This document shows positions 11,709-54,956 of a stretch of 54,968 nt of DNA, piece by piece. The notes below the pieces were generated by a model, which saw only the letters and a list, made by a program, of their open reading frames with translations, was not told where the DNA came from and did not search any database. Each line of letters begins with the position of its first letter. Position 1 is the first letter of the stretch. The position numbers and the translations under genes are program-made. Source of the stretch: a virus; the IMG/VR virus record IMGVR_UViG_3300020201_000026, positions 1-54,968 of that record; one strand, given 5' to 3'.

Positions 11709-11781
11709 GTCCTTATAGCTTAACTGGAAAAGCGTTACCCTTCTAAGGTAAGGAGTACAAGTTCAAATCTTGTTAGGGACA
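11709..11781 (+). tRNA. tRNA-Arg (anticodon TCT)
   Basis: 73 nt with all parts: acceptor GTCCTTA/TAGGGAC, D-stem GCTT/AAGC with an 8-nt loop, anticodon stem TTACC/GGTAA with loop CTTCTAA, T-stem ACAAG/CTTGT with loop TTCAAAT, discriminator A. No CCA is encoded. It reads AGA, the dominant arginine codon in the phage genes, so it likely supports late protein synthesis. It sits directly after a promoter and 15 bp before the first right-arm gene. Confidence 0.95.
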
Positions 11782-11796
11782 CTAATAGATTATAAT

Positions 11797-31852: not shown

Positions 31853-32879
31853 AGAATGTGATAAAAAAAGACTTGTCAGACAACGCGTCTTTCAAAAAGG
31901 GGGGTCTGTTTCTACAATGGGCTACAAAGACAACTCCCCGTATAGAAACGCCCCTTCTCTGATGATAGATAGCCCGAACGGCACAATAACAATGGACGGG
32001 GTATCCAAAGACCTAATAGGCATAGACGAGTACGGGAATAGGAAAGTGATGAAGGCTAATAGTGGGGAGTACCGTTTTAAAGGCAGCAAGGTAAAGGAAA
32101 TACCAATCGCTCAGGCAGGCGGAGAGCTAAGTGAGGGAATGTCTGGAAACCTATTAGGAGGAATACAAGGAGGCGTAGGTCTATTGTCAGACGGGGTGGA
32201 CTACCTTTCTAACAAGAACACAATGAACAATCCGCAAAAAGGAAAGTCGCTTGGCTCTATGATAGGCGGAGGCTTAGGATTAGCCTCAATGGCTTTTGGC
32301 GTCCCTCCAACAGTAGGAATGGCGATAGGCAGCAAGTTAGGAGGGGCAGTAGGCGGAGTAGTAGGAAACAAAATATTAGAAAAACCAGTATTACAAACAG
32401 TAAACACAGTAGGAATCCCAAAAGCTAAAACAGGAGGCTTATTAAACCAAAGAAACATGAACTTCAGAGAAAAGTACAACGACTACCAAAGCGGTGGGGC
32501 ATTGACAAAGAATTATCAAGGCGGCGGCTTAGTGTCAGGAGAAGGGGCTATGCCTCATAGTCAGGGGGGTGTTCCCACTGTAGACGAAACAGGACAGCAA
32601 ATAGCAGAAGTAGAAGGGGGAGAACGCATCTTCTCAGTAGAGGACACTGCCCAAATTGAACAGATGGTTCAAGAATACAGCCAGACAAATTCACCAGAGC
32701 TGGCTCAACAAGGCTGGGACTTTGTGGTACAGGCTATTATGAAACAGGAGCAGGTGAATCCTTCTGAAACGGGGGTAGCAGGAGATACCTCTATGCAACA
32801 ACCGATGATGGAGAAAGGCGGAAAGTTCTTGTCTAAAAAAGGGCTATTTAACTATTGGAAAAACGATGACGAAGAATAA
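31845..32879 (+). CDS. crAss-type virion protein with Gly-rich hydrophobic core, 344 aa
   Basis: N-terminal zinc-like C-K-E-C, then F-Q-K-G-G (17-21), Y-R-F-K-G and E-I-P-x-A-Q, followed by a Gly-rich hydrophobic region (about 115-175, G-G-G-L-G-L-A-S-M-A-F-G) and E-V-E-G-G-E-R-I-F-S. This modular pattern (F-Q-x-G-G, then V-E-G-G-E) is common in virion proteins of crAss-like phages. A membrane-active or ejected role is possible. Confidence 0.65.
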   Translation: MCKECDKKRLVRQRVFQKGGSVSTMGYKDNSPYRNAPSLMIDSPNGTITMDGVSKDLIGIDEYGNRKVMKANSGEYRFKGSKVKEIPIAQAGGELSEGMSGNLLGGIQGGVGLLSDGVDYLSNKNTMNNPQKGKSLGSMIGGGLGLASMAFGVPPTVGMAIGSKLGGAVGGVVGNKILEKPVLQTVNTVGIPKAKTGGLLNQRNMNFREKYNDYQSGGALTKNYQGGGLVSGEGAMPHSQGGVPTVDETGQQIAEVEGGERIFSVEDTAQIEQMVQEYSQTNSPELAQQGWDFVVQAIMKQEQVNPSETGVAGDTSMQQPMMEKGGKFLSKKGLFNYWKNDDEE

Positions 32880-36535: not shown

Positions 36536-39500
36536 TGGACGAATTAAAACTACCATACAACGTTAATGCTTTTAAAGGCGGAGATGAACAACCAATGATT
36601 CCTGTTCTTCCCGATACACCAGCATACGCAAATACCTTTGCCCCTGCAATAGAAGAAGAACAAAAGAACAAACACGATGTCCTAAGACAAGAATCACTAA
36701 ATGTAAATAGAAGTGTAGGATATGACGGGTCATACAAAGGCACTATATACTCCGACACAATGCGCAAAAGGCTGGAGGAAAGAGACGGAATGATAGGCTC
36801 TTTTATCTATCCAGATGCTTTAAAGACACCAGACTACGACTTCCGAATAGAAGACATAGAAAAATACTGGGCAAAAAAGGAGATACAAGACAAGTTCAAA
36901 AAGGAAGACGGCACAACAGATAGAAAAGCATTTGACAAATATTTTTTTGAAGTTCAGAAAACAATTAAAGGGTTACAAGACTTTCGTAGGTTTCAAGACG
37001 TAGTTCAAGAGTACGACCCTCTCAAAAACCTAACAGAAAGAGACTTAGAAGCAAGAAAAAGGTTTATGCCTACCCTTGTGCGTAAAACAAGCTACCGAGA
37101 TGAAAGTCTAACGCTACAACACCAACTGCTAAACGAAGGCAAGATAGTAGACCTAAAAGGAAAACCAGTAGCGTATAACGGAAACTACTTTGGGGCATCA
37201 GACAAAGGAGTTTCTTATTCTGAGTTAGTAGGCAGAGGCTTTCACGTAGCAGTACAAGACGGTGAGAAAGTATTAAAAGAAGGAGCTTGGGGAAAAGACT
37301 TAAGTTTAGAAGACCGACTCGGCTACTGGGGTGTTTCAAGAATGGACAAAGCAGACTGGGCAGACGCAACATACATTATAGGAGGGGTCTTTAACGGGCT
37401 TTTGTCTACTGTATCTAACGTAACCCAAATTGCACAAATAGCCTCTGAAGTAGTAGGGGCTTCTATGCGTTTGACAGGCATGAGCAAGGACAACGCAGAG
37501 TATGTGTCAGGCTACAACATGTTCACAGGGACTAACAACTTTGTAGAACGCGTTATGGTAAACAAGTACGAAGGAAATGACGGCAATCTAAGACACTACG
37601 GGGACATAATAGGGAATGCCACAGGACAGCTGGGGGGTATGTTTCTTACAGGAGGACTTGGTATAGGAACTTGGGCAGCAGCTAAAACACTTATGGCAAC
37701 TCGCAGCGCAGCTAAAATGGCACTGTTGGCTACTAACCTCATTAAACCTTCTACTGGTCCAGCGGTTGTAAACTTATTAAGGTCTGCTAATCCTTTATAC
37801 CAACGAGTTGGGCTTGCTCTTAATCTCGGGGTATTAGGGGCAAACCAAACAATGGACGCAATGAGGCATAGCGGCATAGACATAAAGTACAGAGGACCAA
37901 TGGGGATTGCAGCACTATCTGTCTTTGGCGTATTAGCACAAGTAGATGACTTTCTAATTGGCAAGAACTCTACACAATACTTTCTTAGCAAAGTGGGATT
38001 GTTAAACACTCCTGCTGTATTAGCTAAGAGCTTGGTGGATATGGTTACCCCTCTTAAAGGAGTATTGAACACTATGACAGAAAGAGAAGCCTCTAAGCTG
38101 TTTGTTTCATTAAGTGAAAAAGCGTACCAAAAAGTTATCCGCAGCCTTACAGGGAATGCAGGAGTTGGACAAGCAGTAAAAGAAACTTTCCAAGAGCTTA
38201 TGGAGGAAGGAGCAGACAAAGCACTGTTAAACTTATACAATCAACTTCCCGAGAAAACATACGGCAAAGTAAGAAAAGAACACGCAGCGGTCAAGTTTCA
38301 AAACTTTGTTGACGCAGCTGTTGGTGGTGCTGCTGGTGGTGCTATTTCTGGGACAGCCCAACGAATGATTCAAGGAGACACCTCTAAAGAAGGCGAGACA
38401 GTCTTAGATGTCATTGTAGACGAGTCTTCGTACAAGAAGACTATGGCTATGTTAGTGGAACAAGCTGACGACACTAACAGAAGCAAGAAATGGTTGTTTT
38501 CTTCTATTGACATAGATGACAAAGGGGAGTTGATTAAAAAAGGGGCATTGACAAAGTCTGCCAACGCAACAACAGCTGACTTGATGATACACAATATGAA
38601 AGTATTGAAAAAGACGTGGACGGCTTTTAAGACTACATACAAGGACAAAACAAAAAGCTATCAGGCGATGTCAAAAGAGTTTAAGGAGTTAATAGCCCAA
38701 AACCCTGACGACACCAATTTATTTAGCTTTTTAGCAGGCAAGAAGTTTAAAGACCAGTTGTCTAAGGTTAAAATAGGCGAAGAAGATGAAACCGCAAATA
38801 AGGAGATACAAGAAGGATTGAACACTATACTTGTAGACGATGCTGATAGTATAAAAAGAGAGTTCTTTGACAAAATGTTTTACTTAGCAAAAGGAGGGGA
38901 CACTACCTACTATGACGAGTATAACAGACTGAATGTTGATGTTATCACAAGAAACTTCAACAATATGCAAGAAAGGGTCGCTACTCTTCCTGCTATAACC
39001 GACCTTAATTCTACCCTTGACTTCTTAAATCAAACAGAAGGAGTAGCAGAAAAAGGACAAATAGAAAAAGCTACTTCTTTCATTGAACAAACGAATAAAC
39101 AGCTTTTAGAAGGAAGACAAACACTAACAGAGGAATCCGCCCTGAACAATACTCTCTCAGAAACAGTGGAAAACACTAAAGCAAAGGTAGAAGGGACATT
39201 AGGGAATGACGAAGAAGCAGACATAAACCCGTTTTTAGAAGATATTTTTTCAGCAGTAGATAAGTATTCCCATTTCTTAGCGTCAGAAGTTAGAAGGGCA
39301 ATTGAAGAAGAAGACATAGATGCAAAACTAAGTGTGATAGCATTAGTTGAAGATTTTTCGGCAAACAAAAAAATAGCTTTGGAAGCCCAAGTACAAGACG
39401 CTACTGAACAAGAACAAAAGCTGGCGGCTTACGGGAATAAGCTAAAGTCTTTAAAAGACATAACAGACCAATCGGTTATGGCAGATGTAAACAAAGAAAT

Positions 39501-42126
39501 ATACTTCTCCCCTATTGAGATAGACGGAGTACGATTTAACATAAAAGACATTGAAGCCAAAGCAAGCGAAGATGTTCAAGATAAAGACTTTGGAATATCC
39601 GAATATGCCGAAATGGAACAGGCGTTTCAGACATATAGGGCAATTAAACAACACCAGATACTCTACAACAACCTAACAGGAGCTAAAGTAAATGAATACC
39701 TAAAAGGGAATAAGACAGATTTAGTGCCTGCTATAACAGAAGAACAAGCAAAAGAATACACGGCATACCTTGCGAAAGTAGAAACAGACTTAGCCAAGCT
39801 AAAAGCGTTGGCAATAAGCAATGAAAGCAGTTTTGTTAAAAACAACTTTAACAGTTCAATAGGTGTGTTTTCAGATAAGCTCAGTAGAATCTCACGTATC
39901 ACTTTTGTAGACCCAAAAACAGAAGAGGATATAAAAGAGATACAATCTCAATTAGGGGCATACATAGATGCTACAGCAGCGTTAGACCACATGGACGATG
40001 TTTTAGTTGACGAGCTTTCTAAAATAGAAGCAGGGTTGTTTACAGCTATTTCAGCGATAGAAGAGTCAATATTTAAAAGCTACAAAACCAACACTGCTGA
40101 AGTAGACACCGCCCTAAAAAACATTGCCGTTAGGTTAGCTCAGGCTGACTCAGCTTCAGCCGCAGAAGAAAGAGACGCTAAGATAGAAGAGCTGCGTACT
40201 TTCAACTACCTGCATCAGATAGCTACAGTAAGCACAACGGAAACCAACAAACAACTTTGGCTGGCTATTGCCGAGTTAAACAAAATAGACAAGTACTTCT
40301 TTCCTTCTTTTGAGCAAATATACGCTTTACAAAGAATGTATATGAGTATTTCCGCTTCTCAAAAAGGGCAAGAAATGCTAATTGCAAACGGGGTAACAGA
40401 AGTAGCTAACACGGTGATTATCCTAAATGGCTTTAATGGAACAGGCAAAACTAAAACAATGTCTTTGTTTAAGACAATGGTTAATGGAAAGCTCAAGTAC
40501 TTTGCTCATAGTGAAAAACAAAACGAAAATCTTTCTAAACTGACAGCTGGAAAAGGTAGCTTTCTGTTTTCAGAGAAAGGTAAAAAAAACGACTACACTA
40601 TTGTCCCAAGCACAGACCCCACTGACACAGACAGTATTACCCCTACGGAAGAGTCAAAACTAAATAAAGCTTTATCAGGGTTGAAAAAAGGCGACGTGTT
40701 AGTTGTAGACGAGTACACTATGTCTGCAACAAAAGGGTTGAAGATGATATTAAAAGAGGCAAAGGACATCGGGTTTCATGTTGTGTTGATAGGCGACACT
40801 GGGCAAGCTACTACAAATGCTACCAGTTACACCCCAAGAGGCAATCTCACAAACGTTTTTGCTTTGACAGACTCTACTGTCCCTTTGAAGCTACAACAAA
40901 GGGGGGGCATTGTTACAATACGAAAGGCAACGGACTACTTCAGGGGACTGCAAGCGGTGTTAGAAACCCAGAAAGGCGTTGTGGAGGCAGAGCAAGTGGA
41001 TAAGATGCAGGAGCTAATTGAGAAGCTGCCTCCTTTTTATTATCAGGAACACACTGTGGAGGGTTTCACAGAAGGCATTTCGGTAGTAAGCACATTAGAA
41101 GAAGCAGAAGCACTTGTGAAAGGTAGAGAGGTTATTAAAATAGGGCATAGGGCAAGTGGGGACACTATGAGTGTTATGACGGCTCAAGGGTCTGAGGCGG
41201 AAGTAGTAATAATTGACTTGGGTACTTCTTTGACGAATGGAGAAATAAATGTTTTAGATTCAATCCCCTTTTACTTTTCTGTATCAGAACACTTTAAAAA
41301 GCTACTGTCTGCTTCTGGCAGGGCAAAGACGCATTTGATTATTATACAACCTGCTAATGACTTGTTGCAGGGCAAGTTCAAAAAGGTATCTGGGAAGGTT
41401 TCTGAGTTTAGTGAAAAGGAAGAAACGAGAAAGACCTTACACGAAAAGGGGACTTCGGCATTTGAGTCTTACAATACAGTTCCTGTTGTTTCTGCTACAC
41501 CTGTTGTTGCTCCTGTTGTTTCTGCTACACCTGTTGTTGATACAGATACTGATACAGATACAGATACAGATACTGAAGCTGATACTGAAGCTGATACTGA
41601 AGCTGATGCCTCTAACAACAATTTGTTTTTGGCAGGAGTGAGGCAACTGTTAGACGCGTATAAAGGGCGCATTACCTACCCTGTTACAGACTTCGTTATA
41701 AACGTAGACAACACGGTTACTATTATGCTTAGAGGATTAGAAGAACAAACAATAGATATAAACGCCTCTTTTATTGAGGCGTTAAGAAAGACCACTGAGG
41801 TTATCTCCTGTTCTTTATTGACAACAGAAGGAGGGCTTGATTCCAAGACGGCAGTAGAAGTCTACACTGATTTAACTGGAAACACAATAATCATAGGAGC
41901 AGACGGGACTATAGACGCAAACAGTGATATGTACTATGTAATAAACAACATCGCACACACACATGAAAACGGAGGCTTTAGAGAAGTGTTAGATGCTGAC
42001 GGAAAAGCTTTTGAAATAGACGACACCGCAACGGACAACTATGACAAAATTGCAAAATGCACGGTTGTTGGAACAAAACCCCCAGAAGGAAAAGGAAACA
42101 GAAACGAAAGCAAATTAAAACTATAA
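36535..42126 (+). CDS. Giant virion protein with SF1 helicase domain, 1,863 aa
   Basis: The first 1,280 residues are helical, with Gly/Ala-rich hydrophobic stretches (about 280-480 and 590-620) suited to membrane passage. A complete SF1 helicase follows: I G-F-N-G-T-G-K-T (1299-1306), II V-V-D-E-Y (D1392, E1393), III G-D-T-G-Q (1420-1424), V T-A-Q-G-S-E (1549-1554) and VI S-A-S-G-R-A-K-T-H (from 1592), closest to the RecD/TraI/Dda group. Then come a Val/Thr/Pro linker, a D-T repeat and a C-terminal domain. It is probably ejected with the DNA and may unwind it or move it into the cell. Confidence 0.8.
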   Translation: MDELKLPYNVNAFKGGDEQPMIPVLPDTPAYANTFAPAIEEEQKNKHDVLRQESLNVNRSVGYDGSYKGTIYSDTMRKRLEERDGMIGSFIYPDALKTPDYDFRIEDIEKYWAKKEIQDKFKKEDGTTDRKAFDKYFFEVQKTIKGLQDFRRFQDVVQEYDPLKNLTERDLEARKRFMPTLVRKTSYRDESLTLQHQLLNEGKIVDLKGKPVAYNGNYFGASDKGVSYSELVGRGFHVAVQDGEKVLKEGAWGKDLSLEDRLGYWGVSRMDKADWADATYIIGGVFNGLLSTVSNVTQIAQIASEVVGASMRLTGMSKDNAEYVSGYNMFTGTNNFVERVMVNKYEGNDGNLRHYGDIIGNATGQLGGMFLTGGLGIGTWAAAKTLMATRSAAKMALLATNLIKPSTGPAVVNLLRSANPLYQRVGLALNLGVLGANQTMDAMRHSGIDIKYRGPMGIAALSVFGVLAQVDDFLIGKNSTQYFLSKVGLLNTPAVLAKSLVDMVTPLKGVLNTMTEREASKLFVSLSEKAYQKVIRSLTGNAGVGQAVKETFQELMEEGADKALLNLYNQLPEKTYGKVRKEHAAVKFQNFVDAAVGGAAGGAISGTAQRMIQGDTSKEGETVLDVIVDESSYKKTMAMLVEQADDTNRSKKWLFSSIDIDDKGELIKKGALTKSANATTADLMIHNMKVLKKTWTAFKTTYKDKTKSYQAMSKEFKELIAQNPDDTNLFSFLAGKKFKDQLSKVKIGEEDETANKEIQEGLNTILVDDADSIKREFFDKMFYLAKGGDTTYYDEYNRLNVDVITRNFNNMQERVATLPAITDLNSTLDFLNQTEGVAEKGQIEKATSFIEQTNKQLLEGRQTLTEESALNNTLSETVENTKAKVEGTLGNDEEADINPFLEDIFSAVDKYSHFLASEVRRAIEEEDIDAKLSVIALVEDFSANKKIALEAQVQDATEQEQKLAAYGNKLKSLKDITDQSVMADVNKEIYFSPIEIDGVRFNIKDIEAKASEDVQDKDFGISEYAEMEQAFQTYRAIKQHQILYNNLTGAKVNEYLKGNKTDLVPAITEEQAKEYTAYLAKVETDLAKLKALAISNESSFVKNNFNSSIGVFSDKLSRISRITFVDPKTEEDIKEIQSQLGAYIDATAALDHMDDVLVDELSKIEAGLFTAISAIEESIFKSYKTNTAEVDTALKNIAVRLAQADSASAAEERDAKIEELRTFNYLHQIATVSTTETNKQLWLAIAELNKIDKYFFPSFEQIYALQRMYMSISASQKGQEMLIANGVTEVANTVIILNGFNGTGKTKTMSLFKTMVNGKLKYFAHSEKQNENLSKLTAGKGSFLFSEKGKKNDYTIVPSTDPTDTDSITPTEESKLNKALSGLKKGDVLVVDEYTMSATKGLKMILKEAKDIGFHVVLIGDTGQATTNATSYTPRGNLTNVFALTDSTVPLKLQQRGGIVTIRKATDYFRGLQAVLETQKGVVEAEQVDKMQELIEKLPPFYYQEHTVEGFTEGISVVSTLEEAEALVKGREVIKIGHRASGDTMSVMTAQGSEAEVVIIDLGTSLTNGEINVLDSIPFYFSVSEHFKKLLSASGRAKTHLIIIQPANDLLQGKFKKVSGKVSEFSEKEETRKTLHEKGTSAFESYNTVPVVSATPVVAPVVSATPVVDTDTDTDTDTDTEADTEADTEADASNNNLFLAGVRQLLDAYKGRITYPVTDFVINVDNTVTIMLRGLEEQTIDINASFIEALRKTTEVISCSLLTTEGGLDSKTAVEVYTDLTGNTIIIGADGTIDANSDMYYVINNIAHTHENGGFREVLDADGKAFEIDDTATDNYDKIAKCTVVGTKPPEGKGNRNESKLKL
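41481..41607. repeat. In-frame tandem repeats encoding a flexible linker
   Basis: A 30-bp unit (encoding P-V-V-S-A-T-P-V-V plus A/D) occurs twice (41481-41510 and 41511-41539), followed by GATACN-type repeats encoding D-T-D-T and three copies of a 12-bp unit encoding D-T-E-A (41569-41604). They join the helicase to the C-terminal domain. Copy number probably varies between strains. Confidence 0.9.
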
Positions 42127-42129
42127 AAA

Positions 42130-44664
42130 ATGGCTAATTGTAGCATAAAACCACAAGTCCAAGAAAGTATTAAAAGAGCAACACACGTAAAAAACATCTT
42201 AGAAGGACAGATAGCGTCAGACAGTGTAGATTTTACAAACCTGCTTATCGCTTTTGCCGCTTACGGGTTTCCCTCATTAGAAGGTCGCGTGAAGATAGAG
42301 TCAAAATACGCAAGTTCTTTTTACTTACCTGGAATGATAGACGATATACAAGTCTCAACAGGGGCAACTTTTGCAAAGGTTAAAGATTTCCTCAATAGCG
42401 AAGACCCAAGAGCGATAAAACTCCTTGAAAAATCAGATGCTTTTTACGACCACCTTAAAGCTTTCAACAACAAGGACGACATAGAGTTGTTTGAGAAGAT
42501 AAAGAACTGGATAGCTTTAAACCGCACAGGGGTTACAACCATTGTCCCTGTTGATTATGCAGACGCAGATATCATAGTGCAGCAACCACTTGATTTTACA
42601 AGCAGAGTGCAAATGATGAGCCACATCATAGACACTATTGAAGACTCTACTTTAAGAGCTAAGGCAGCAGTGTTCCTTGACTATATAAGCACAGGGAACA
42701 TTAATGCCCTAATAGACAAGGAACAAGCCACAGGCACTGACTTTGTAAGTAAACTGTCTAATGCTGTGAAGAACCAAACAAGAGTCCCCGTACAAGTGAG
42801 AACAGAGCTTGTTATGGAAGGAGGCATTACAGTTGCTAAACACAAGGTGTATATGGGAGATGAGCTAATAGGAACATTACAAGACCCTGCTCTGTTTCAA
42901 CACGCTAACACCAATGAACTCAAACAGACACACGACAAGGCTGTAGAGATGTGGGGACTTGAACACGTAGAAAAAAGATTAGCTGCGTTTGGCAATGCTA
43001 TTGCTGAATTACACCGAATCAAAACAGTCAGCTTGGAATTAGTCGGCTTAGGCAAAGGTAACTTCACACACAACAAAAAGAATACTTTTTTAACAGGTAT
43101 CACATTGTCAAGTCTTCAAACAGACGAATACAAAAGCAATTTGCCTGCTAACCTTGAAATAGGAAAAAAAGTACTAATAGACTGGTCTAAGTGGCGAATG
43201 ATAGCTGGAATAAAGATGTCCCAAAAAGAACGAAAAGAGCTATCTGGATTTGTTGAAAAAATAGGGGGCATAACTGAGTTAATGAACGCGACAGAAACTA
43301 CAGTACAAGATGTAGACATTGCTCTTTTAAAAAAGTACCAGCAGTACTACGAAGAAAACAAATCATACCTAAAGCCCTTTGTGGTTTATTCTTTTACAGG
43401 GCAGGACTTAGAACCCCCTACTATTACTCCTAACCAGTTAGTTTCTCAGTACTACGAAAACTTGTTGGAGTTTATGGATAAAAGAGGGCGGATAATGTTA
43501 GACACTCCGTCTTTTACTTTTTCCGAGCTAATGAAAAAGTTTAGCACGAACTCCCCTATTAAACAGTATATTGACGAGTTGCAAGAAAGCGATAAGGAAG
43601 TAGATAAAAACGTGAACAGAGCCAAGTTAGGCTTTGCGTTTGTTTCTTCAGCAAGCACCCACAAGACATTAGAGACAATGCAATCACTGGTAACCAGTAA
43701 CCGTATAAAGGTTTTCAATACTGACAAAGACGGGGTACATAGAAACTCTTTTGCAGTAGCTATGACAGCAGACGTAAATGGCGATTCTTCAAGCCCAAAG
43801 TCAATCTTGGAAATGCTTAAGGAAACAATAAAAGAAGGTAACTTTGACAGTAAACTTGGTCATTCATCAATTGGAGGAATCCTTAGTTCAGACGGTGCTT
43901 TTAGTCTAAAACAGGACGATGAGATATTAACCCATCTTTTTTCTTTTCTACCGCTGGTAAAAGTAGGTAAAAAATACAAACACGCTTTAGACTATTTGTT
44001 TCAAGAACTTGCTGATTTCAATGAAGACTATAAGAAGTTTTCTAATGAAACACTCAAAGGGGGCAAAAACATAACGGATTATTTGTTCAGTAAAAGGGCA
44101 TCTCCTGCAAACATAATCAACAGAATGGTCGTTATGAAAGTAGGGGGCAAAGAAACAAGCAACCCTATCTATGACGAGCAAGGGGTGTTTGTTACAGTAG
44201 CCAGAAGGATAGGAACAAAGGCAGAGGAAATATTTGAGATAGAAAAGGCTTTAAAACGGAACAATAAAGACGTTGAAATGAGGTATCAAGCTAATGCTCT
44301 TTTACAAAAGGACAGTGGCAAAGCGGCTATAAAAAACCAAAACAGTGTAGGGGGCTTTGCTATTGTGGAAAGTGCCAAAATGGCTAAGTTAGGAATAGAG
44401 TACACTGTTCCGTCAATCCCTACTGAACCAAACATTTTATTAAGCGTTAAAGAGAGTAACCCTGTGGCGGCTGAAAGAACTACAATGGAAACTTTTCAAA
44501 ACATAGTAGCCCACAAAGAGGTGTCTTCTACAATAAAAAAAGCAGTACAAGTATATATAGATATAAACGACACATCTCCTAAAGCTATTGCAGACGTTGA
44601 CGAACTTCTTTTAGAGGAGTTTGAAGACAGAGACCAAATCCCCCCACTTTGTAACGTTACATAA
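42130..44664 (+). CDS. Giant-block virion protein, 844 aa
   Basis: Not recognised. Helical and acidic, without signal peptide or clear catalytic motif. Lies between the helicase giant and the polymerase giant, three bases after the first and overlapping the second by one (TAATG). In other crAss-like phages this block encodes proteins co-ejected with the RNA polymerase; this may be a polymerase partner or scaffold. Confidence 0.65.
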   Translation: MANCSIKPQVQESIKRATHVKNILEGQIASDSVDFTNLLIAFAAYGFPSLEGRVKIESKYASSFYLPGMIDDIQVSTGATFAKVKDFLNSEDPRAIKLLEKSDAFYDHLKAFNNKDDIELFEKIKNWIALNRTGVTTIVPVDYADADIIVQQPLDFTSRVQMMSHIIDTIEDSTLRAKAAVFLDYISTGNINALIDKEQATGTDFVSKLSNAVKNQTRVPVQVRTELVMEGGITVAKHKVYMGDELIGTLQDPALFQHANTNELKQTHDKAVEMWGLEHVEKRLAAFGNAIAELHRIKTVSLELVGLGKGNFTHNKKNTFLTGITLSSLQTDEYKSNLPANLEIGKKVLIDWSKWRMIAGIKMSQKERKELSGFVEKIGGITELMNATETTVQDVDIALLKKYQQYYEENKSYLKPFVVYSFTGQDLEPPTITPNQLVSQYYENLLEFMDKRGRIMLDTPSFTFSELMKKFSTNSPIKQYIDELQESDKEVDKNVNRAKLGFAFVSSASTHKTLETMQSLVTSNRIKVFNTDKDGVHRNSFAVAMTADVNGDSSSPKSILEMLKETIKEGNFDSKLGHSSIGGILSSDGAFSLKQDDEILTHLFSFLPLVKVGKKYKHALDYLFQELADFNEDYKKFSNETLKGGKNITDYLFSKRASPANIINRMVVMKVGGKETSNPIYDEQGVFVTVARRIGTKAEEIFEIEKALKRNNKDVEMRYQANALLQKDSGKAAIKNQNSVGGFAIVESAKMAKLGIEYTVPSIPTEPNILLSVKESNPVAAERTTMETFQNIVAHKEVSSTIKKAVQVYIDINDTSPKAIADVDELLLEEFEDRDQIPPLCNVT

Positions 44665-47600
44665 TGAGTAAAATATCCTTTAACAACTGCAGCACCACTG
44701 CTCAAAAAATGGAGTTTTTAGAACAAGAAGGCAAAGCAACAAATACTCAGAACAGGGCAGTAATGCAAGAATACGTTGCTAAATACCACCCTGTAACGGT
44801 GTTGAAAACTACAGAGGCATATAAAAGCACTGTTACTGACGACCCTACAAATGCCCTTTTGTATTTTCCTAAAACAGATAACCCTGTTATAGAAGGAAAA
44901 GGACTGTCCATATACGAAGATGAAAATGGACTGTATATGTATGGTTATTCTAAAGAGATTGCAGACGCTAATGAGGCAGTTAAAAAAGACCCTGAAAAGG
45001 TTTATTTTAGCAACCTCCTAATGGAATCAGACATACTTACAGAAGGAGTAGTAAAAGAGATTAAAGAACAGTTCGTCCCTTTAAAAATAGGGGAAGAAGT
45101 AGACAAGAGACCTGTTAGCGAAGTAGTATATGAGATATCCGAAAAAGAACTAAACAACTATACCCAAACTGAAATATCTGGTTTTATACAACGCTTTAGA
45201 ACAGAAGTGTTTGACAGTGTTTTCAGATACAAAATAGGAAAATGGGAAGAGTTATACCGACTCAAAAAAGAAATCATAGACAAAGCCAAAGAAGGAATAA
45301 ATGACGATACAAAAAGCACACACTATTTTGTGTTTATGTCTAAGTACTTTGACATATTCTTAGAAAACGAGTTCAAAGATGTGTTCACAGTAGATAGAGA
45401 GAAGCAGGATTACAAAATAGCAGTTACAATAGAAGAAACCGAAACAGAAATAGACGAAGACGAAGAAGGAGACCACGAGTATTCAAAAAACCAACTGTTT
45501 GTTGAGAGCAATAAACCACTAAAAGTAACTGGTTTTATGAAGATACTCTTTGGTGCTTTGAAAGGGACAGACGGCAAAAGGTACACTTACCCTAACTATG
45601 TCATCGCTTTATCCGAACTACAAGCTACTACCCTAAAAGAGTTTAGAGAGAAGGTAGATGCCTCGCATAGCCCTGAAATAAAAATCATTAAAGAGTACCT
45701 GTACGGACTTAAAGGGATAATAGCGTCTTCTACAACAACACCAAACCCTCTAATAAAAGATGCCTTCTCTCCTATCGCCTCTAATATAGAAACAGCCCTG
45801 CAACAAATAGCAACTTCTAACAAGCCACAAATACACGCCAACATAATAAAGAAAGACAAAACAGAACAAGGCTTAGAGGTACTCTCTGTGTTTAGAACAC
45901 AAGGGCAAAAAGAAAGACTAAACTCTATTGTAAGTATTGTAAATGACAAAGACGTGCTTGCCCTTTTAAGAGCGCATACTGGGCTAAAGAAAAAGGCAGA
46001 AGACACTACAAAGACTGCTGAAGAACAAGCGGTAGCAAAAGAGCTATACAAAGAATCTATTGTCAATCTATCAAAAGTGTTAGGTATAATAAACAGCCCT
46101 GACGCAACAGTGTTGATAAATGAAATATCAGCTAAAGCAAGTAGTTCAAAAGATGACAACCCACAGAGGTTTAGCAGAAGCATCTCACAAGACAGCGACC
46201 TCATAACACTTATACAACAAGGTGAGGCTTTGCAAGCTAACAATACACTGACAGTTAGTGTAGACGGCAAGCAGGTATCTGTCTTACAGAGAAGCAATCA
46301 GCTAAACACATTGCCTGCTGTTTCAACAGAGTATGGAAAAACAGACACCTTCTCAGTAGGCACAGTTGTAGAAACAAACAGGTTCAAAGACGGCGACTTA
46401 GCAAGAGGGGTAGTCAGAATAGACAATACCGCATATCTACAGTCAGGGTACGTTTTAAACGGGTTCAAAATATCGTATGCTGGGTTCACTGATTTAGAAA
46501 TGCTGAAGACAGCGTTAGAGATGTTTAACAAAGGAAGAAACATTGCCCAAACTTCCTTTTTAATACAGACCATAACACAATCTGACCAATCAACTCCTGT
46601 TGCTACTCAAATTAGTTTTGGCTCAAGATTCTTTGAAAATGTGTCTTTAAACTTTAAAGATGAAAACGGAAAACCAATAGCGTTTGACAGTAGCAACAAT
46701 GCTCACTGGATAAAAGTCCTTAACCAACGCACTTTCAAAAACGAGTTAAACTATTGGGGACACACATTGCGTAACATGTTTGCCCACATAGGATTACCCC
46801 CATACATAACTCTATCTGAAATGGTAGAAGAGCTAAGTAAAGAAACGGCTATCCCAGAAGGAATATCTGTCAATCAACTCCAAGCCAGATTAGGTAGAAA
46901 CTACATAAGTGTTTCTAAAGACGGAAAAACATTTAGTCTTAACCCCGACTTAAAAAAATACCTCAACGCTCTTGACACACAAGAAGGGTTTACTTCTGAG
47001 TTAGACAAGATGTGGGAGGAAACCCTGTTAGTAATCAAAGACAGGTATGCCGCTGGTGTTTTTAGTGCCGATGAAACTGACCAGTTAAAACTAATGCACT
47101 ATCTACACGCTTATACAGACCGCGTGATTAACCCATTGCTGGTAGGCGATATGTTCTCCTATAAAGGCAACAACGTGTTTAAGAAGGTGGTAGACAGGTT
47201 TAAGAGGAGCAAGCAGTCAGGAGGCATAGGGTTAGCTGAAACAGCTTTCGGATTAGGAGAAACAGTTAGCACAATTGCCCTCACCTCCTTTTCAAGCAGC
47301 AAGTTGTTCAAAAACGATTTGCCTGATAGCAACACTGACACACGGATACATGATGTTTTTGGCAACGAGGTAAAAGACTTCAAGGCAGTAGACGGACAGT
47401 CTTTTATGTCCCCTTTACAAGCACGATTAATGAGAGAGTCATTCGGTGGGGACTTGCAAGACTACTTCAAGAACGGGCTTGACACTAAGACACTGATAAC
47501 AGGAATGCTGGGCAACCACACAATCAATATAAAAGACTCAACCCTGACTATCTCCCCAAACATTTACCGCATATCAACGCCTGTGCAGAAGGCAATATAC

Positions 47601-50600
47601 AGACTAATGTATAGCCGAACATACGCAACAGACTTAACCGATATACAATCCTCTATTGACTTTGTTGTAGACAAAGTAATAAAAGACCATGACAAAAGAC
47701 AAGGGCTTAAAACGCACCTTTCAGAAAACCCAACCCACAACAACGCTTGGGAGTTATTGCGTAGCATCAACATAGGCTTAGGAAACAATAACACGAGCAA
47801 TGAAATACTACAGGAGTCAGAAGACTTGCTGTATTACCTCACTATTGTCTTTTATCTTCAAGGTGGCAAATACAGCGACATCAAAGAGAAGTTTTTCAGC
47901 AGTGTTTCTAACATAGAAAACATTAAAGCCAACAACGGCATAGAGCTAAAGCCAATAGACGACTCTTTTGTATTTGAAGACGGCAATATTGCTATAAACA
48001 ATGCGACATTTGACGACTATCAGTATTCTCAAATACCAACTAAGAACATAAAGATACAGTTAAATGCCAATCACGACATAGCGCACTCTGCTATAACCCT
48101 AATGACACAAGCGGTAAATGTGATGGGTATTCAAGGGAGAGTAGAAAAGGGCAAGAAGATGAAGGAAATAATCAAACGCCTTACAGACACAATAGTAGTG
48201 GACATACCGCTACTCAAAGACATACCTGAAGAAGAGCTAAACGAAGAGTTAACAAAAATACTGTTACAAACTATTGAGGATAAAGACAACCTCATGCAGA
48301 AGAATGAGATATTAGCATCAGAAGACGGTAGCATAGTTTTTCTGCCATACTACTCCAATCTTTTAAGCAACAAGCTAAACACATATATAAACAAAGCAAT
48401 TAAGCCTAAGATAAAAGGGGACTTGTTTGTGCTTAGACAAGGCACTAATATGATACAGGTTTATGACTGGCAAGTTGCTACAACAGGGGAAACACAGTCT
48501 GGGCTATATGACGAGTACCAAAGTGCAATGTCAAAAGGACACGTGATAGTAGGAAAACCTCGTACATTGAAAAACGACGGCATCTTATACAAAGGGAAAG
48601 ACATTAGATTCCCTAACAAATACAACGAAGAAGAAAAAGACACCATAACAGAAAGAGCATCTGAGATATTACAAGGGGTAGCCTCAAAGACAATAGACGA
48701 ACAAGTGTGGTTAGACTTTATAGACGAAAACAGCAGTGTTTTTACTGTAAGACCGTTTGAAGTAGTTTTACCAAACAACTACAGGAAGGAACTTCCATTT
48801 GTGCAACAGCTCGGATTAAACGCTTCACAAGCTGAAATAAAGCAGTGGTATGATAAAGCAGGCAAAGAAGAAGACAACACGGAACTCGCTCATAAAAAGT
48901 ATTTAGAACTGCAATCTATAAAAGAAGTTATAGTAAACAGGATACCTACAACAGGTCTTCACTCTTCTGGGTACTCTAAAATAGTAGGCTTCCACAATGA
49001 CAACTCCAACACTATCTTTATACCAGACGGCATAATGTATATACAAGGCTCGGATTTGGATATTGACAAAGGAGTAACTGTTTTACGCGACCTTAAAACA
49101 AAAGACAAAACAGGCAACGATAAACAAAGCATAAAAGAAGCTAACAGCATATTAGACACCTTTATAGATGTGTTGTCTAAACCTCGTAGCTACAACGAGG
49201 CACACACTCCTGTAACAACCAACGAGATGGACGAGGTTAAGACAGACCTAATGGAGGAATTGTCAGATGAAGACAAAAGGTTTATGAACTTTAACCCGTA
49301 CAGAACCTTTATGGATATGATAGCTGGCAACTGGCTAAACGGTGGAGGCAAGACACAAGTAGGGGTATATGCTAACTCTCAAAAAGTATATAACAACGTG
49401 TTTTATGTTTGCAGCACTCTAATTGAAGAGGCATATTTCGCAGCAAAAAGCGTTTCTTTTTATGGACAATCTGCCGAGTGGATAAGAACAGAGGGAAGAA
49501 AATGGGTACTTGCAAACCACTCTGACGCAAAAATAAAACAAGTATTTAATTTGTTTCCTGCTATTACATTTCAAAGCCCTATATTAGTAGAAGCAACAGA
49601 CGGAGGCAAGGCAAACACAATAGGCAATATCTTTCAACCACGCAGTAAAAATCAAGTTTGGGCAAGTCAGTCAGGGGCAAGTAACTCCGCAATGGACAAT
49701 GCAAAAGACCCTAAGTTAGCAATAATAGGTAGCACGTCAGTAACCTCTCCCCTAATAGGAGCGGCTATGATGCTTGGAGGAGAAGACAGCTCTCCTATTC
49801 ACTATTCGTTTTTAAAGTTTTTTGCTGACCCTATTACCAAAGCTATTGTCAAGAACAAAGGGCAAGCCACTGATAAAATGACAGCTGAGTTTGAAAAAGA
49901 CCCAGCCTCTAAAGGGCTTGTTGCCAAGTACTTAAAGGACTACAAGGCTTTAGAAAAGTGGGCGGAGTTTTCTAACGGGCTTGCTAAACTGTTAAAGATA
50001 AATCAGGGCGCACCGTTTCAAACAGTAGACCTCTTGATATTTCAAGACGACTATGATACAGCAATGCAGGCTAAAGACGGCAGAATAAAAATAGTAATGG
50101 ACAACTTACCAGAGTTTTCTAACTATTTTAAAGTAATGAATAGTAACACAAAGTCAAAGTCCAAGCTGTTCAAAGATGTAGCTTTGATAATGGAGTATTT
50201 TAGAACAGATAAAAACATAATAGCCTCTCAAAAAACAAATACTGATGACGAGGCTGAAACAATAAACGTCAACAAGTCAGCAAGGACAAGAGACCATTAC
50301 AAAAGCATATCAAAAGCAGTGTCGTATTTGCTTTTAGCATCAAGCAGAGTAAACATAGCCATTGATTACAATGGAAAAAAGGAAGTCTTTGAAATAAATA
50401 GCAAAGAAGTTTTGGACTATCAAGGAAACACAGTAGGGTCAAAGGCACTTGAAGACTTTGGCAGAAGGTTTCCTAAAATGATAAAATGGTATTTAACCAC
50501 AAACTCATCGTTATATCCTACCTTATACGACAAAGTCAAATTAGACGAGGACGTAATAGGCAAGGACGAAACAGTAGCCAAAGCAGAGATAAAGTACTCA

Positions 50601-53600
50601 AGCACATTAGACTACAAGACACAGTTAGCTCTTCAAGAGGAGTTTCAAAAGATGCCTCTTGAGTGGCAAGACGCATTGTATATGTACTCTGCTATGAAAG
50701 ACGGCGAGTCTTTTGGCAAACACACCTTCACTTCTATTTTCGGGGGCAGCGTGCAACGTCAAAGAACTATAGACGCTATACGCAGATTTGACATTCGCAA
50801 AGTTCCTGACGACTACATGATGGACGCAATAAGAAAGATAAGCAAAGGAGGGTTTCGGCTTGTGTTTAACACTCAGCCAGCGGTAAACGCAAGTGTTGTC
50901 AGCATAGACTCCTCTCTTTCAAAAAACGAAATGGCAACAACAGAAGCCAAAACAAAGATGAAAGGGCTTGTAGGAGCTTTGTTTACAAAACTGTTTGACT
51001 TCCTAAACGCAAAAGGAGTGGTAGTCCATTCTGGAAACAGTGAAACGTTAAAAGCCGTCTTTATAGCAAAGGGGGGGACGGAAGCAATGTACAATAACTA
51101 CGCCTCTTCTGCAAAAGGGTTTACTTTTAAAAATGAAATTTATATAAACCCTTTTGAAGATAGCGAAAATGTGCTTTTAACAAGAGCGCACGAGTACGCC
51201 CACATATTTTTACAAATGCTAAAGCACGGAGGCAAAGAAGCTAATGCCAGCTATGTCAAGCTATTAGAACAAGTGAAAGAGGCAAGAGGGGAGTTCAAAG
51301 AGTCAATAGACAAGGTCAATGCGTTGTATGAAGGGGAGTTAGAAGAAACCTCAGAAGACTATTGGGAAGAGGTTCTGGTTCAAGAGTTAGAAAGAATAGC
51401 CAAACTTGAAATTGAGAAGAAGCCTGTTGAAATAACCCCTTCTATACAAGACGCAAGAAAGTCAATATGGCAAGCCATAAGAGCCTTTTTCACGTTTGAC
51501 TTTAGCTTCAACACGGTTAAGGCAAACAGAAAAGGGGTAAGTGCAGAAGAAACCCTTCTTTCTATTGTGAAGTCGTTACACAGATACATAGGCGAAAGCA
51601 CAAAGGAAACTTCTCTGAGAGAGCAATACCCGTTAAAAAGCCTGACCAAGACGGAAACAGAAAAGGTTCGCCAAAGCAAACAAGACACAGAACGCCCTAT
51701 TGGTAGGTTTACTAATCAAGACACTCTTACTCCTAACTATGACTATGTTCTTTTAAGAGAGAGGTACATGAAAGACCTAAACCCAAAACTCAACGCGGCA
51801 CTGATAAAAAAATTAGAAGCAAACAAAACTCCTGAGAGCATTAGGATAATCTTAGAAAACGCAGGACTGATATCTTCTGCTCCTACTGTGTTAGCTCTCT
51901 CTTTGTTTGATGCTCAAAACCTAAAAGAAAAAGACCAGCACAGGGTTAATAGAATATTCCAACATTCTTCTAAGCTACAAGTTGAAAGAAGAGAAATACG
52001 CGAAAGCCCTGACCCAAGATTTAAGGACGTGTTGTATGCTGTTAAAACAGTAAACGGCGTAGAATACATAGACTTGATAGGGTGTTTGTCTGTTGTACCT
52101 TTAACTAAGACGCACGGTTCTTTGACTAAGTTTAGTTCATTCACCAGCTTCTTTCAAAACAACATAAGAGATGCAAAGATGTTAGAGCTTGCTATCTTTG
52201 CCTTGTACTTAAAGACCAAGTATCCAAAAGCTGTGTTTGGAACTATGAAGGTAGCCCAAATTGCAAACAACTTGGACAAAGCGGAAGACGTGCATATAAA
52301 AGATGCCAATCAAGTGATACGTGAGTTCCAGAGAATGGGCAAAGACAACAAGGACAAGTACACAGCAGACTTCTTAGCCACTTTAAAAGACAAAGACTTA
52401 ATAGAAGCTATTCAGAGTATAGACTTGGTGGCTTCCAACTACCTTGAAATATACAAGCAGGAGTTTGCTGCAATGGGGGCAAACTTAGAAAAGACAGACG
52501 ACAAAGTTGCCTTTGTTAGAAAACGCAAGTCGGAAATAAGAAACACGACTGTTGGATTTTCAACAAACGAGGAGTACATTTTATTGTCGCGACTTGAATC
52601 AGAGCTTATCGGCTTAGACATGCAAGGCAACAAGGTGATTGACAAGATAAGTCGCTGGCTTAAGTCCTCTTCTGATTTTACAAACGAGATAGTGCAGTAT
52701 GTTCAGAACTTGACTAAGAAGGCTTTTGACAATATAGCGAAAGAGTATTGGAGCGGATTTAGAAAAGTGTCTGATTTGAAAACAGCAGCATTGATTGTGG
52801 CTCTTAGAAAAGCCTTGCCCGAGTTGCAGTACGGAACAATCAAAGGCTACCGTGAGTACTACAAGCACTTGTGGGAGACGGATACTAATGGAATAAAAAC
52901 AGGCAGATTGATAAACCCTGTAACCTCTCCTACTGTCAATCCCTCGTTGTGGAGTAGCAAGTGGAGTCATTTGCTAAAAGACAAAGACATTATAGGCTAC
53001 ATTGAATGGTACAAGGACACTTTGGCAGAATACAAAACAAAGATGTACCAAAGAGAAGAAGGCATAAACAGGTCTCCTATAAGCCTACTTGGGGACGAGT
53101 ACTTTATACCTTTGGTCAATGCCAAATGGTCGCAGCAGCTGTTCCAAAACGGAAAGATAGTAAAAGCTTTTAACGAAGTTACAGCTGTAATAAACGACTA
53201 TGATAGAATTTCAGGGAAGCAGTTGCTCACGGACAACTTAGACAAAGACTTATACAATCACTTTGTTTCTCAGTCTTTAAGCAAAGACATTTACTTTAAC
53301 AGGATAGGGCTACAGCGATTAGGGGACAACACCTATGCAGTACAAGAGGGCGGCAAGGTCAAGAACGAAAGTACAGAGATACACTTGGAGAACTTGTTGA
53401 ACTTGTTCGTTATGACAGAAATGAAGCAGTCCCATTTGAAGGAAGTCGCAGAAGTCTATGACACTGTCCTGACTATCTTAAAAGCAGAAAACAACCCAGA
53501 CCTTGACTACTCTATAAGATTCTTTACAGACCAGTACCAGAGGGTTATTCTGAACCATAAGAACTTAGACAACGGGTTGTTTGATAAAATAACCTCTGCT

Positions 53601-54956
53601 TTGGGGTCAGTGGCGACATATTTCGGCATTGGCTTCAACATGACAACAGCAGTACACCAAATGGCACAAGGGCAGTGGAACTTGTGGAACAATGCCTTTT
53701 CTGGTGTTATGGGAGTAGACAATGCGGTTAGCATGAAGGCTTGTGCAAAAGCATTTGGCATAATGACTACGGCGACAGGAGGAAACATTGCAGGCACTAT
53801 CTTTAAGATAGGCGGCTACAACGGGCAAAACACCAAGACAGTAGAGAAAGTTGAAGCCTTGTCTAAACATTTCAGATTGTTGGACATGGACTATAGCAGG
53901 ATAACAGGAAACCAGTATTCGCTGACAGGGAACTTTGCTTCTGACTTACCTTTCATAGGACTGAACGCAGGGGATTACTTTAACAAAATGCAGTACTTTA
54001 TTGCAAAAATGATTGACGATGGTTCTTGGGACGCGTACAATATGACTAAGGTTAATAAAGACGGCAAAAAAGTAAAAGACTCGGAGGAAGGAATTTACAC
54101 GTTGTTTTATGACGAAAGCAAAGACAGACGGCTAAAAGAAAACCCTTTGTTTAGGGCATACCTTGTTGAGCAGGGATTAGAAGTAGACGGGAAGCTAACA
54201 GACGGCTACTCTTATGAAATGGCTAACAAGATAAGAAGGCTCTCTGACATATTGTTTGGCACGTTTTCTAAAGAAGACCAGAACAATCTTAACTCGTATG
54301 CGTTTTTTAGATTGATACTTGCTTTTAGAAGGTGGGTTGTCCCTAAGATAATGCGGTATTGGAACGGGAGAACCTTTGACAATAAGGAACTCGGCAACCT
54401 TGTAAACAAAGACGGCAAAATGGTTTGGGAAGGCACGTTTAGTGAAGGTATATTTATGTCTATTGGCTCTTGGATGTATAACATCAACAAGGCGTTCAAG
54501 CAAGACGGAATGGGCATATCTGTTTTCCCCAAAGCGTGGGGCGAGCTAAACAAAACTCAGCAAGACAACATTTACAGAGGGGCTACGGACTTAGTTATGT
54601 TTATTGCTCTTGTTTCTATGATGATGTTAGCAGAGCCTGACCCAGAGGAAAGAAGTAGAAGAAGGGGGATATGGAAAAAGATATATGACCTAACAGCAGA
54701 TTTCACTATTGCGAATGACCCGAGTCAGGTTTTGGCAATTATAAAATCTCCTATCACGTTGGTTACCTATTTAGAGAGGCTGCTTTCTATTTTCACGCTT
54801 GGGCTTTTTACGGGAATAGAAGGGGCGACAGGGTTTGATATTTTGACAGACCGACAAGTTAAACAGAGATTAAAAGGAGTACGTGATTTTGGGGGGTTGT
54901 TTGTACCACTCTACAAAGACTACAGGTACTGGGAAGAAATGATGGACGATAAATAA
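44664..54956 (+). CDS. Giant virion RNA polymerase with metallopeptidase domain, 3,430 aa
   Basis: A D-L-D-I-D motif (1464-1468) in G-S-D-L-D-I-D-K matches the catalytic D-x-D-x-D of crAss-like single-chain RNA polymerases (phi14:2 gp66 has D-F-D-I-D). The three Asp bind the catalytic metal in the double-psi barrel. About 700 residues on, R-A-H-E-Y-A-H (H2176, E2177, H2180) is a zinc-metallopeptidase HExxH, with a later W-x-E-V-L-V-Q-E-L that could give the third ligand. The C-terminal 500 residues are hydrophobic in parts (one TM-like stretch near 3310) and resemble ends of polyvalent phage proteins. Probably packaged and ejected to transcribe early genes; the peptidase may cut it into pieces. 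Confidence 0.85.
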   Translation: MSKISFNNCSTTAQKMEFLEQEGKATNTQNRAVMQEYVAKYHPVTVLKTTEAYKSTVTDDPTNALLYFPKTDNPVIEGKGLSIYEDENGLYMYGYSKEIADANEAVKKDPEKVYFSNLLMESDILTEGVVKEIKEQFVPLKIGEEVDKRPVSEVVYEISEKELNNYTQTEISGFIQRFRTEVFDSVFRYKIGKWEELYRLKKEIIDKAKEGINDDTKSTHYFVFMSKYFDIFLENEFKDVFTVDREKQDYKIAVTIEETETEIDEDEEGDHEYSKNQLFVESNKPLKVTGFMKILFGALKGTDGKRYTYPNYVIALSELQATTLKEFREKVDASHSPEIKIIKEYLYGLKGIIASSTTTPNPLIKDAFSPIASNIETALQQIATSNKPQIHANIIKKDKTEQGLEVLSVFRTQGQKERLNSIVSIVNDKDVLALLRAHTGLKKKAEDTTKTAEEQAVAKELYKESIVNLSKVLGIINSPDATVLINEISAKASSSKDDNPQRFSRSISQDSDLITLIQQGEALQANNTLTVSVDGKQVSVLQRSNQLNTLPAVSTEYGKTDTFSVGTVVETNRFKDGDLARGVVRIDNTAYLQSGYVLNGFKISYAGFTDLEMLKTALEMFNKGRNIAQTSFLIQTITQSDQSTPVATQISFGSRFFENVSLNFKDENGKPIAFDSSNNAHWIKVLNQRTFKNELNYWGHTLRNMFAHIGLPPYITLSEMVEELSKETAIPEGISVNQLQARLGRNYISVSKDGKTFSLNPDLKKYLNALDTQEGFTSELDKMWEETLLVIKDRYAAGVFSADETDQLKLMHYLHAYTDRVINPLLVGDMFSYKGNNVFKKVVDRFKRSKQSGGIGLAETAFGLGETVSTIALTSFSSSKLFKNDLPDSNTDTRIHDVFGNEVKDFKAVDGQSFMSPLQARLMRESFGGDLQDYFKNGLDTKTLITGMLGNHTINIKDSTLTISPNIYRISTPVQKAIYRLMYSRTYATDLTDIQSSIDFVVDKVIKDHDKRQGLKTHLSENPTHNNAWELLRSINIGLGNNNTSNEILQESEDLLYYLTIVFYLQGGKYSDIKEKFFSSVSNIENIKANNGIELKPIDDSFVFEDGNIAINNATFDDYQYSQIPTKNIKIQLNANHDIAHSAITLMTQAVNVMGIQGRVEKGKKMKEIIKRLTDTIVVDIPLLKDIPEEELNEELTKILLQTIEDKDNLMQKNEILASEDGSIVFLPYYSNLLSNKLNTYINKAIKPKIKGDLFVLRQGTNMIQVYDWQVATTGETQSGLYDEYQSAMSKGHVIVGKPRTLKNDGILYKGKDIRFPNKYNEEEKDTITERASEILQGVASKTIDEQVWLDFIDENSSVFTVRPFEVVLPNNYRKELPFVQQLGLNASQAEIKQWYDKAGKEEDNTELAHKKYLELQSIKEVIVNRIPTTGLHSSGYSKIVGFHNDNSNTIFIPDGIMYIQGSDLDIDKGVTVLRDLKTKDKTGNDKQSIKEANSILDTFIDVLSKPRSYNEAHTPVTTNEMDEVKTDLMEELSDEDKRFMNFNPYRTFMDMIAGNWLNGGGKTQVGVYANSQKVYNNVFYVCSTLIEEAYFAAKSVSFYGQSAEWIRTEGRKWVLANHSDAKIKQVFNLFPAITFQSPILVEATDGGKANTIGNIFQPRSKNQVWASQSGASNSAMDNAKDPKLAIIGSTSVTSPLIGAAMMLGGEDSSPIHYSFLKFFADPITKAIVKNKGQATDKMTAEFEKDPASKGLVAKYLKDYKALEKWAEFSNGLAKLLKINQGAPFQTVDLLIFQDDYDTAMQAKDGRIKIVMDNLPEFSNYFKVMNSNTKSKSKLFKDVALIMEYFRTDKNIIASQKTNTDDEAETINVNKSARTRDHYKSISKAVSYLLLASSRVNIAIDYNGKKEVFEINSKEVLDYQGNTVGSKALEDFGRRFPKMIKWYLTTNSSLYPTLYDKVKLDEDVIGKDETVAKAEIKYSSTLDYKTQLALQEEFQKMPLEWQDALYMYSAMKDGESFGKHTFTSIFGGSVQRQRTIDAIRRFDIRKVPDDYMMDAIRKISKGGFRLVFNTQPAVNASVVSIDSSLSKNEMATTEAKTKMKGLVGALFTKLFDFLNAKGVVVHSGNSETLKAVFIAKGGTEAMYNNYASSAKGFTFKNEIYINPFEDSENVLLTRAHEYAHIFLQMLKHGGKEANASYVKLLEQVKEARGEFKESIDKVNALYEGELEETSEDYWEEVLVQELERIAKLEIEKKPVEITPSIQDARKSIWQAIRAFFTFDFSFNTVKANRKGVSAEETLLSIVKSLHRYIGESTKETSLREQYPLKSLTKTETEKVRQSKQDTERPIGRFTNQDTLTPNYDYVLLRERYMKDLNPKLNAALIKKLEANKTPESIRIILENAGLISSAPTVLALSLFDAQNLKEKDQHRVNRIFQHSSKLQVERREIRESPDPRFKDVLYAVKTVNGVEYIDLIGCLSVVPLTKTHGSLTKFSSFTSFFQNNIRDAKMLELAIFALYLKTKYPKAVFGTMKVAQIANNLDKAEDVHIKDANQVIREFQRMGKDNKDKYTADFLATLKDKDLIEAIQSIDLVASNYLEIYKQEFAAMGANLEKTDDKVAFVRKRKSEIRNTTVGFSTNEEYILLSRLESELIGLDMQGNKVIDKISRWLKSSSDFTNEIVQYVQNLTKKAFDNIAKEYWSGFRKVSDLKTAALIVALRKALPELQYGTIKGYREYYKHLWETDTNGIKTGRLINPVTSPTVNPSLWSSKWSHLLKDKDIIGYIEWYKDTLAEYKTKMYQREEGINRSPISLLGDEYFIPLVNAKWSQQLFQNGKIVKAFNEVTAVINDYDRISGKQLLTDNLDKDLYNHFVSQSLSKDIYFNRIGLQRLGDNTYAVQEGGKVKNESTEIHLENLLNLFVMTEMKQSHLKEVAEVYDTVLTILKAENNPDLDYSIRFFTDQYQRVILNHKNLDNGLFDKITSALGSVATYFGIGFNMTTAVHQMAQGQWNLWNNAFSGVMGVDNAVSMKACAKAFGIMTTATGGNIAGTIFKIGGYNGQNTKTVEKVEALSKHFRLLDMDYSRITGNQYSLTGNFASDLPFIGLNAGDYFNKMQYFIAKMIDDGSWDAYNMTKVNKDGKKVKDSEEGIYTLFYDESKDRRLKENPLFRAYLVEQGLEVDGKLTDGYSYEMANKIRRLSDILFGTFSKEDQNNLNSYAFFRLILAFRRWVVPKIMRYWNGRTFDNKELGNLVNKDGKMVWEGTFSEGIFMSIGSWMYNINKAFKQDGMGISVFPKAWGELNKTQQDNIYRGATDLVMFIALVSMMMLAEPDPEERSRRRGIWKKIYDLTADFTIANDPSQVLAIIKSPITLVTYLERLLSIFTLGLFTGIEGATGFDILTDRQVKQRLKGVRDFGGLFVPLYKDYRYWEEMMDDK

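Follow-up and report, generated by a model that had tools for sequence, protein, structure and literature searches.

Does a virus that joins an RNA polymerase and a metallopeptidase motif in one very long reading frame eject a polyprotein that frees its polymerase by cutting itself? The question is raised by an open reading frame on the plus strand (44664–54956; ATG start, TAA stop) of the IMG/VR virus record IMGVR_UViG_3300020201_000026, whose whole stretch of 54,968 bases is called the window here. ORF calling, motifs and profiles divide its 3,430-aa product, hereafter the giant chain, into a predicted crAss-like virion RNA polymerase (RNAP), a zincin-like domain and a C-terminal cargo module. 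The first-pass annotation, made from the letters, had placed DLDID at residues 1464–1468 and HEYAH at residues 2176–2180 of this frame; both are there, and they are the sole D.D.D and the sole HE..H match in the chain. Composition-preserving shuffles of the giant chain contain D.D.D in 59%, HE..H in 3.6% and G.D.D.DK in 0.5% of cases, chance rates that make motif-only evidence weak, and the case for both motifs therefore rests on homology.

Searched directly with the giant chain, Pfam, PHROGs and PDB sequences yielded no useful match, and relatives were reached only through the DLDID block and through profiles. No close relative came up when IMG/VR was scanned with single proteins, and the sole near-identical contig (L004/L105) spans the capsid and terminase genes, so that no independent assembly of the giant ORF was seen. 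A HAD_SAK_1 match in Pfam at residues 2755–2801 (E 0.011) lay below the cut-off and was set aside.

The window comes from a divergent crAss-like phage

The capsid gene (22068–23516) matches the Crassvirus major capsid protein family PF23898 in Pfam (E 3.5e-45), and the terminase (TerL) matches Crassvirales at 26–28% identity. Judged from these two genes, the source genome is that of a divergent crAss-like phage of the Crassvirales. No replication-block polymerase or primase was recognised in the 54,968-base record, from which we infer that the genome is probably incomplete.

The giant chain carries a predicted two-barrel RNA polymerase

DLDID (49053–49067, plus strand) lies within the catalytic barrel motif RIPTTGLHSSGYSKIVGF...GSDLDIDK (residues 1426–1469; 48939–49070, plus strand). 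Its context, RIPTTG..S...IVGF...GSDLDIDK, aligns with 14 crAss-like RNAPs and includes seven invariant columns, the three Asp among them, while a tblastn search of all phage records with this region returned crAss-like RNAP chains at 33% identity (E 6e-4). Using the catalytic barrel block as query, we fetched 80 IMG/VR loci and built profiles from these and from named phages, leaving the giant chain out. Such profiles match its residues 899–1488 (E 4e-23) and 1493–1763 (E 5e-13), with E values scaled to a search space of a million sequences (Z=1e6).

An AlphaFold model of residues 764–1963, computed from a 55-row alignment, has a mean pLDDT of 58.8 and a pTM of 0.66. The top Foldseek match of this model is the phi14:2 RNAP (PDB 6VR4, E 2.5e-13), and VIA aligns it to 6VR4 with a Z of 15.7 over 773 residues; QDE-1, P32 gp64 and P74 gp62 rank next, and the first ten VIA rows hold only two-barrel single-chain RNAPs. 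The match to QDE-1 and P23-45-type RNAPs covers most of the model. By model, Foldseek, VIA and profiles, the polymerase region extends over residues 764–1901 (46953–50366, plus strand), structurally aligned to phi14:2 gp66 760–1818. The first-pass annotation had taken DLDID as the mark of a crAss-like virion RNAP and had suggested a search for two double-psi barrels near residue 1464. Motif context, profiles and the 6VR4 fold match all bear this identification out, the barrels being recovered through a match of the whole, low-confidence model. On the polymerase tree the giant chain forms a long branch (2.82 changes per column), and alignment and model together identify it as a very divergent crAss-like two-barrel virion RNAP. 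An N4-type (Schitoviridae) vRNAP identity was ruled out, the polymerase being two-barrel by profile and by Foldseek.

Separately, Gln995 (47646–47648) occupies a position of the first-barrel region at which almost all relatives have a lysine (K-x-S); this may be an error of the alignment, which is weak there, or a real change in the active site.

The additional length corresponds to a neighbouring gene fused in frame

Residues 3163–3380 of the giant chain are homologous to phi14:2 g065 and crAss001 gp49 (BLASTP E 1.7e-7 and 3e-9 in a small local set). The same module gave an E of 1e-6 by tblastn against all phage records, and a profile built without the giant chain covers residues 2954–3425 (E 4e-42). 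BLASTP, tblastn and profile thereby delimit the C-terminal cargo module at residues 2954–3425 (53523–54938, plus strand), its presumed role being judged from position and homology. In phi14:2 and crAss001, g065 and gp49 are separate genes that adjoin the polymerase gene, and the two phi14:2 products add up to 3,601 aa (g066, 2,180 aa; g065, 1,421 aa). The giant chain had been described as over a thousand residues longer than phi14:2 gp66, which is correct (3,430 versus 2,180 aa); by homology, the extra thousand or so residues are the neighbouring g065-type gene, fused in frame.

The idea that length or fusion sets the giant chain apart finds no support. Fusion of RNAP and C-terminal module is usual in Intestiviridae (crAss002, 4,245 aa; cr271_1, 4,620 aa) and the longest crAss-like RNAP chains have about 6,000 aa (PMC10136315), so that the length of the giant chain is not unusual, and its arrangement is shared by 11 of 25 non-redundant fused chains, itself included. 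The giant chain is thus ordinary for its kind among crAss-like phages.

A predicted zincin-like domain lies between polymerase and cargo module

Profile, model and VIA place a zincin-like domain at residues 2109–2290 (50988–51533, plus strand). Motif search and alignment locate its HExxH motif, HEYAH, at 51189–51203 (plus strand). The sequence of this region alone had no match in PDB or Pfam, and a zincin profile grown from phi14:2-like seeds did not find the giant chain. The downstream-zincin profile that did so, again built without the giant chain, took HEFGH-type relatives as seeds and needed two rounds; it matches residues 2149–2298 with an E of about 2e-6 (Z=1e6). The H, E and H of HExxH are invariant in 29 alignment rows, these rows having been chosen for HExxH. 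Further along, Glu2236 (51369–51371, plus strand), which lies in SEDYWEEVLVQEL, aligns with KEVLVTAIG of relatives and is probably the third zinc ligand, as predicted from alignment and model.

In a model of residues 2076–2326 the core reaches a pLDDT of 85–93, the strands, the HExxH helix and the Glu helix follow in the expected order, and Glu2236 sits in the helix after the HExxH helix. Foldseek returned no significant PDB match for this model. The top VIA rows are zincins, namely the protease domain of lethal factor (Z 8.2, borderline), PPEP-2 (Z 5.9), N4 vRNAP residues 2124–2351 (Z 5.0) and IrrE (Z 4.4). Compared with PDB sequences, the zincin alignment profile matches 9sfn, an 'Internal virion protein' (E 1.5e-9), 8vb2, a 'Tetrameric ejection protein' (E 2.4e-6), and N4 vRNAP (E 0.003), matches which place the domain among phage ejection-protein zincins. 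The earlier view of the HEYAH region as a metallopeptidase in the same chain as the polymerase is hence supported for a predicted zincin-like domain, by the profile match and by the top VIA rows.

A second, different zincin (GTxYHEAFH...) is found upstream of the polymerase in many relatives; the window has no HExxH upstream of its polymerase. Some chains (L027, L028, L030, L031, L060 and others), up to about 6,000 residues long, carry both zincins, one of the HEAFH/HEIFH kind upstream and the other downstream. We also observed EExxH variants in RNAP chains, at L037:3539–3737 (EELIH), L080:4127–4299 (EETAH) and L102:3651–3853 (EEIVH); these domains would be either inactive or altered in their metal site.

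Gene boundaries move around the zincin

Among crAss-like relatives the order polymerase, zincin, cargo module is constant, and the gene boundary falls before the zincin, after it or nowhere. The same parts, joined or separate, are present in dozens of related phages, and many IMG/VR relatives have an HExxH between DxDxD and the C-terminal module. Where the genes are split, the zincin closes the RNAP chain in 10 loci and opens the C chain in 9.

A zincin meant to free the polymerase should track fusion. Considering all loci with the C-terminal module in view, a downstream HExxH is present in 14/29 fused and 19/46 split loci (p = 0.64), and after removal of near-duplicates in 11/25 and 18/40 respectively (Fisher p = 1), the loci being phylogenetically non-independent in both counts; in one of the 40 split rows, L088, the C chain is truncated. 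The downstream zincin is lacking from nearly half of the fused chains, and in three (L037, L080 and L102) a zincin-like domain persists in which EExxH replaces HExxH. Mapped onto a tree of 65 polymerases, fusion shows a minimum of 6 changes and the zincin a minimum of 8, and an independent-pair comparison, which has low power, found no association between the two. The fused sister pair L083/L087, scanned for a conserved linker motif, yielded no outstanding stretch. The near-equal proportions (11/25 versus 18/40) and the EExxH versions thus give no support to self-cleavage as the purpose of the domain. The release of the polymerase by self-cleavage, as first proposed, is not supported, the zincin being equally common where the polymerase is already a separate protein. 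Nor would it be new: zincin-like domains in N4-type virion polymerases were described by Iyer et al. in 2017, with autoproteolysis proposed either in the head or after injection (PMC5512222).

Comparison with known ejected polymerases

The closest characterised layout is that of phi14:2, where g066 (gp66, PDB 6VR4) and g065 give the same succession of two-barrel RNAP, zincin motif and homologous C-terminal module, with HEIMH at residue 245 of g065, just after the polymerase gene. In phi14:2 these are two genes, the products of which are both virion proteins by MS/MS (record annotation), whereas the giant chain is a single chain; sequence identity is low and matches are significant in parts only. 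The RNAP homologue of crAss001 is a virion protein as well (PMC10172136). Other crAss-like phages resemble the giant chain in joining RNAP and C-terminal module in one chain (crAss002 and the IMG/VR loci L025, L027, L030, L031, L060, L083, L087 and L100). In these IMG/VR loci an HExxH domain lies between the two, as in the giant chain, while the fused chains of Intestiviridae are without it; several IMG/VR fused chains differ in carrying an additional upstream zincin. A zincin of the transcription block had already been annotated in ctbg_1 (AXH74541, 'RNAP associated protein fused to zincin protease'), and crAss001 gp47 has HEAFH. In contrast to the zincin of the giant chain, this type sits on a separate chain, upstream of the polymerase, and in another sequence context.

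Outside the crAss-like phages, N4 vRNAP (gp50, 3,500 aa) is a single ejected chain of similar length in which the polymerase is followed by an HExxH domain and by a large helical domain. A 2025 preprint places these at residues 1007–2102, 2124–2375 and from there to 3500 (PMC12633501). The likeness is one of layout only, since the N4 polymerase is T7-like and single-subunit and is unrelated to the two-barrel RNAP of the giant chain. The polyvalent proteins of Iyer et al. (2017) are likewise large, injected and multidomain, with zincin-like MPTase domains for which autoproteolysis was proposed; the text on them does not mention crAss phages (PMC5512222). The giant chain adds a very divergent lineage to the crAss-like virion polymerases, and the comparison shows a zincin that holds its place between polymerase and cargo module however the gene boundaries move. 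The same layout recurs in N4 vRNAP with an unrelated polymerase, and two solved ejection proteins without a polymerase label match the same zincin profile.

A predicted ejection chain and the possible roles of its zincin

We consider it probable that the giant chain is the catalytic virion RNAP of a divergent crAss-like phage and that an in-frame fusion links it to the cargo protein adjoining it in relatives, with a zincin-like domain between them, the latter parts forming a predicted ejection or packing tail. Homology demonstrates the crassvirus origin, the two-barrel RNAP, the zincin-like domain with intact HExxH and Glu, and the C-terminal module. Like its phi14:2 and crAss001 homologues, the giant chain would be packed in the virion. 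By analogy with phi14:2, crAss001 and N4, it would then unfold and thread through the tail, entering the host together with the DNA or before it, and its polymerase would refold in the cell and transcribe early genes. The zincin and the C-terminal module may act as an ejection or packing tail, possibly restraining the polymerase, in a role like that of the C-terminal domain of N4 vRNAP, the C-terminal part of which inhibits transcription (PMC12633501). Within the ejection machinery the zincin is probably a general component.

The zincin is perhaps an active peptidase whose main role lies elsewhere than in releasing the polymerase from its chain, and it could cut one of the other cargo proteins, a protein of the host envelope or a defence factor at the site of entry. 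We regard this as a real, if unsettled, possibility: the motif is intact, related zincins occur in ejection proteins without a polymerase label (9sfn, 8vb2) and effector action is listed as an alternative in PMC5512222, yet the domain has no known substrate and is absent from many crassviruses. It is similarly conceivable that the domain is mainly structural, serving packing, threading or the keeping of the polymerase in an inactive state, and that some lineages have weakened or lost its catalysis. The EExxH versions in L037, L080 and L102 point that way, as do the contact of N4 C1 with the RNAP and the autoinhibition of transcription by the N4 CTD (PMC12633501); however, most downstream copies found keep HExxH, and this suggests that catalysis or metal binding is selected for.

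Freeing the polymerase is not likely to be the main role of the zincin. A polyprotein whose own zincin severs the RNAP from the cargo module, either in the head or once ejected, is made imaginable by the presence of both domains in one chain with HExxH and Glu intact, and by the proposal of autoproteolysis for zincin-bearing polyvalent proteins, of which P1 DdrB is processed (PMC5512222). Since the halves are separate genes in phi14:2 and many relatives, a cut would recreate those products. We nonetheless judge such a polyprotein unlikely: besides the equal frequency of the zincin in split and fused loci, the EExxH chains and the underpowered independent pairs, Intestiviridae fuse RNAP and C-terminal module without a downstream zincin, and N4 vRNAP is packaged unprocessed (PMC5512222) and, as a recombinant protein, was studied at full length (PMC12633501). 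That an active zincin cleaves the chain it belongs to while ejection proceeds or afterwards, with fused phages then delivering the same separate polymerase and cargo as split phages, seems to us equally unlikely. Finally, HEYAH as a chance motif in an unrelated helical stretch, which the lack of a Foldseek match and the 3.6% of shuffles with HExxH would allow, is very improbable in view of the profile match obtained without the giant chain, the conserved position between RNAP and C-terminal module, the third Glu aligned with relatives and the zincins in the top VIA rows.

Other genes in the window

Upstream of the giant ORF, and in the same block, lies an 844-aa gene (42130–44664, plus strand), the stop of which overlaps the start of the giant ORF by one base (TAATG). 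Before it, a 1,863-aa gene of the transcription block (36535–42126, plus strand) encodes an SF1 helicase-like ATPase domain at residues 1278–1425 (40366–40809; Pfam AAA_30, E 1e-13). The C-terminal end of the L065 RNAP chain also reads like an SF1 helicase motif (VALSRA), so that the helicase seems mobile in position among these phages. Near the end of the 1,863-aa protein an acidic repeat, DTDTDTDTDTDTEADTEADTEADA (around 41533–41612, plus strand), produces several spurious D.D.D matches.

The leftward block holds a 939-aa DEAD/DEAH-box helicase (1025–3844, minus strand; PF00270, E 6e-9; PF00271, E 1e-8). It also holds two adjacent genes of 209 and 206 aa (6051–6680 and 6740–7360, minus strand), which have the look of a tandem duplication with a similar start, MFxIKNxRxxKTNEYFF; the 209-aa gene has no Pfam match. 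Between the tail and cargo genes, a 344-aa protein (31845–32879, plus strand) gives a weak glycine-zipper match (PF13488), below the cut-off. A single tRNA gene, tRNA-Arg (tct), is located at 11709–11782 (plus strand), between the leftward and rightward blocks.
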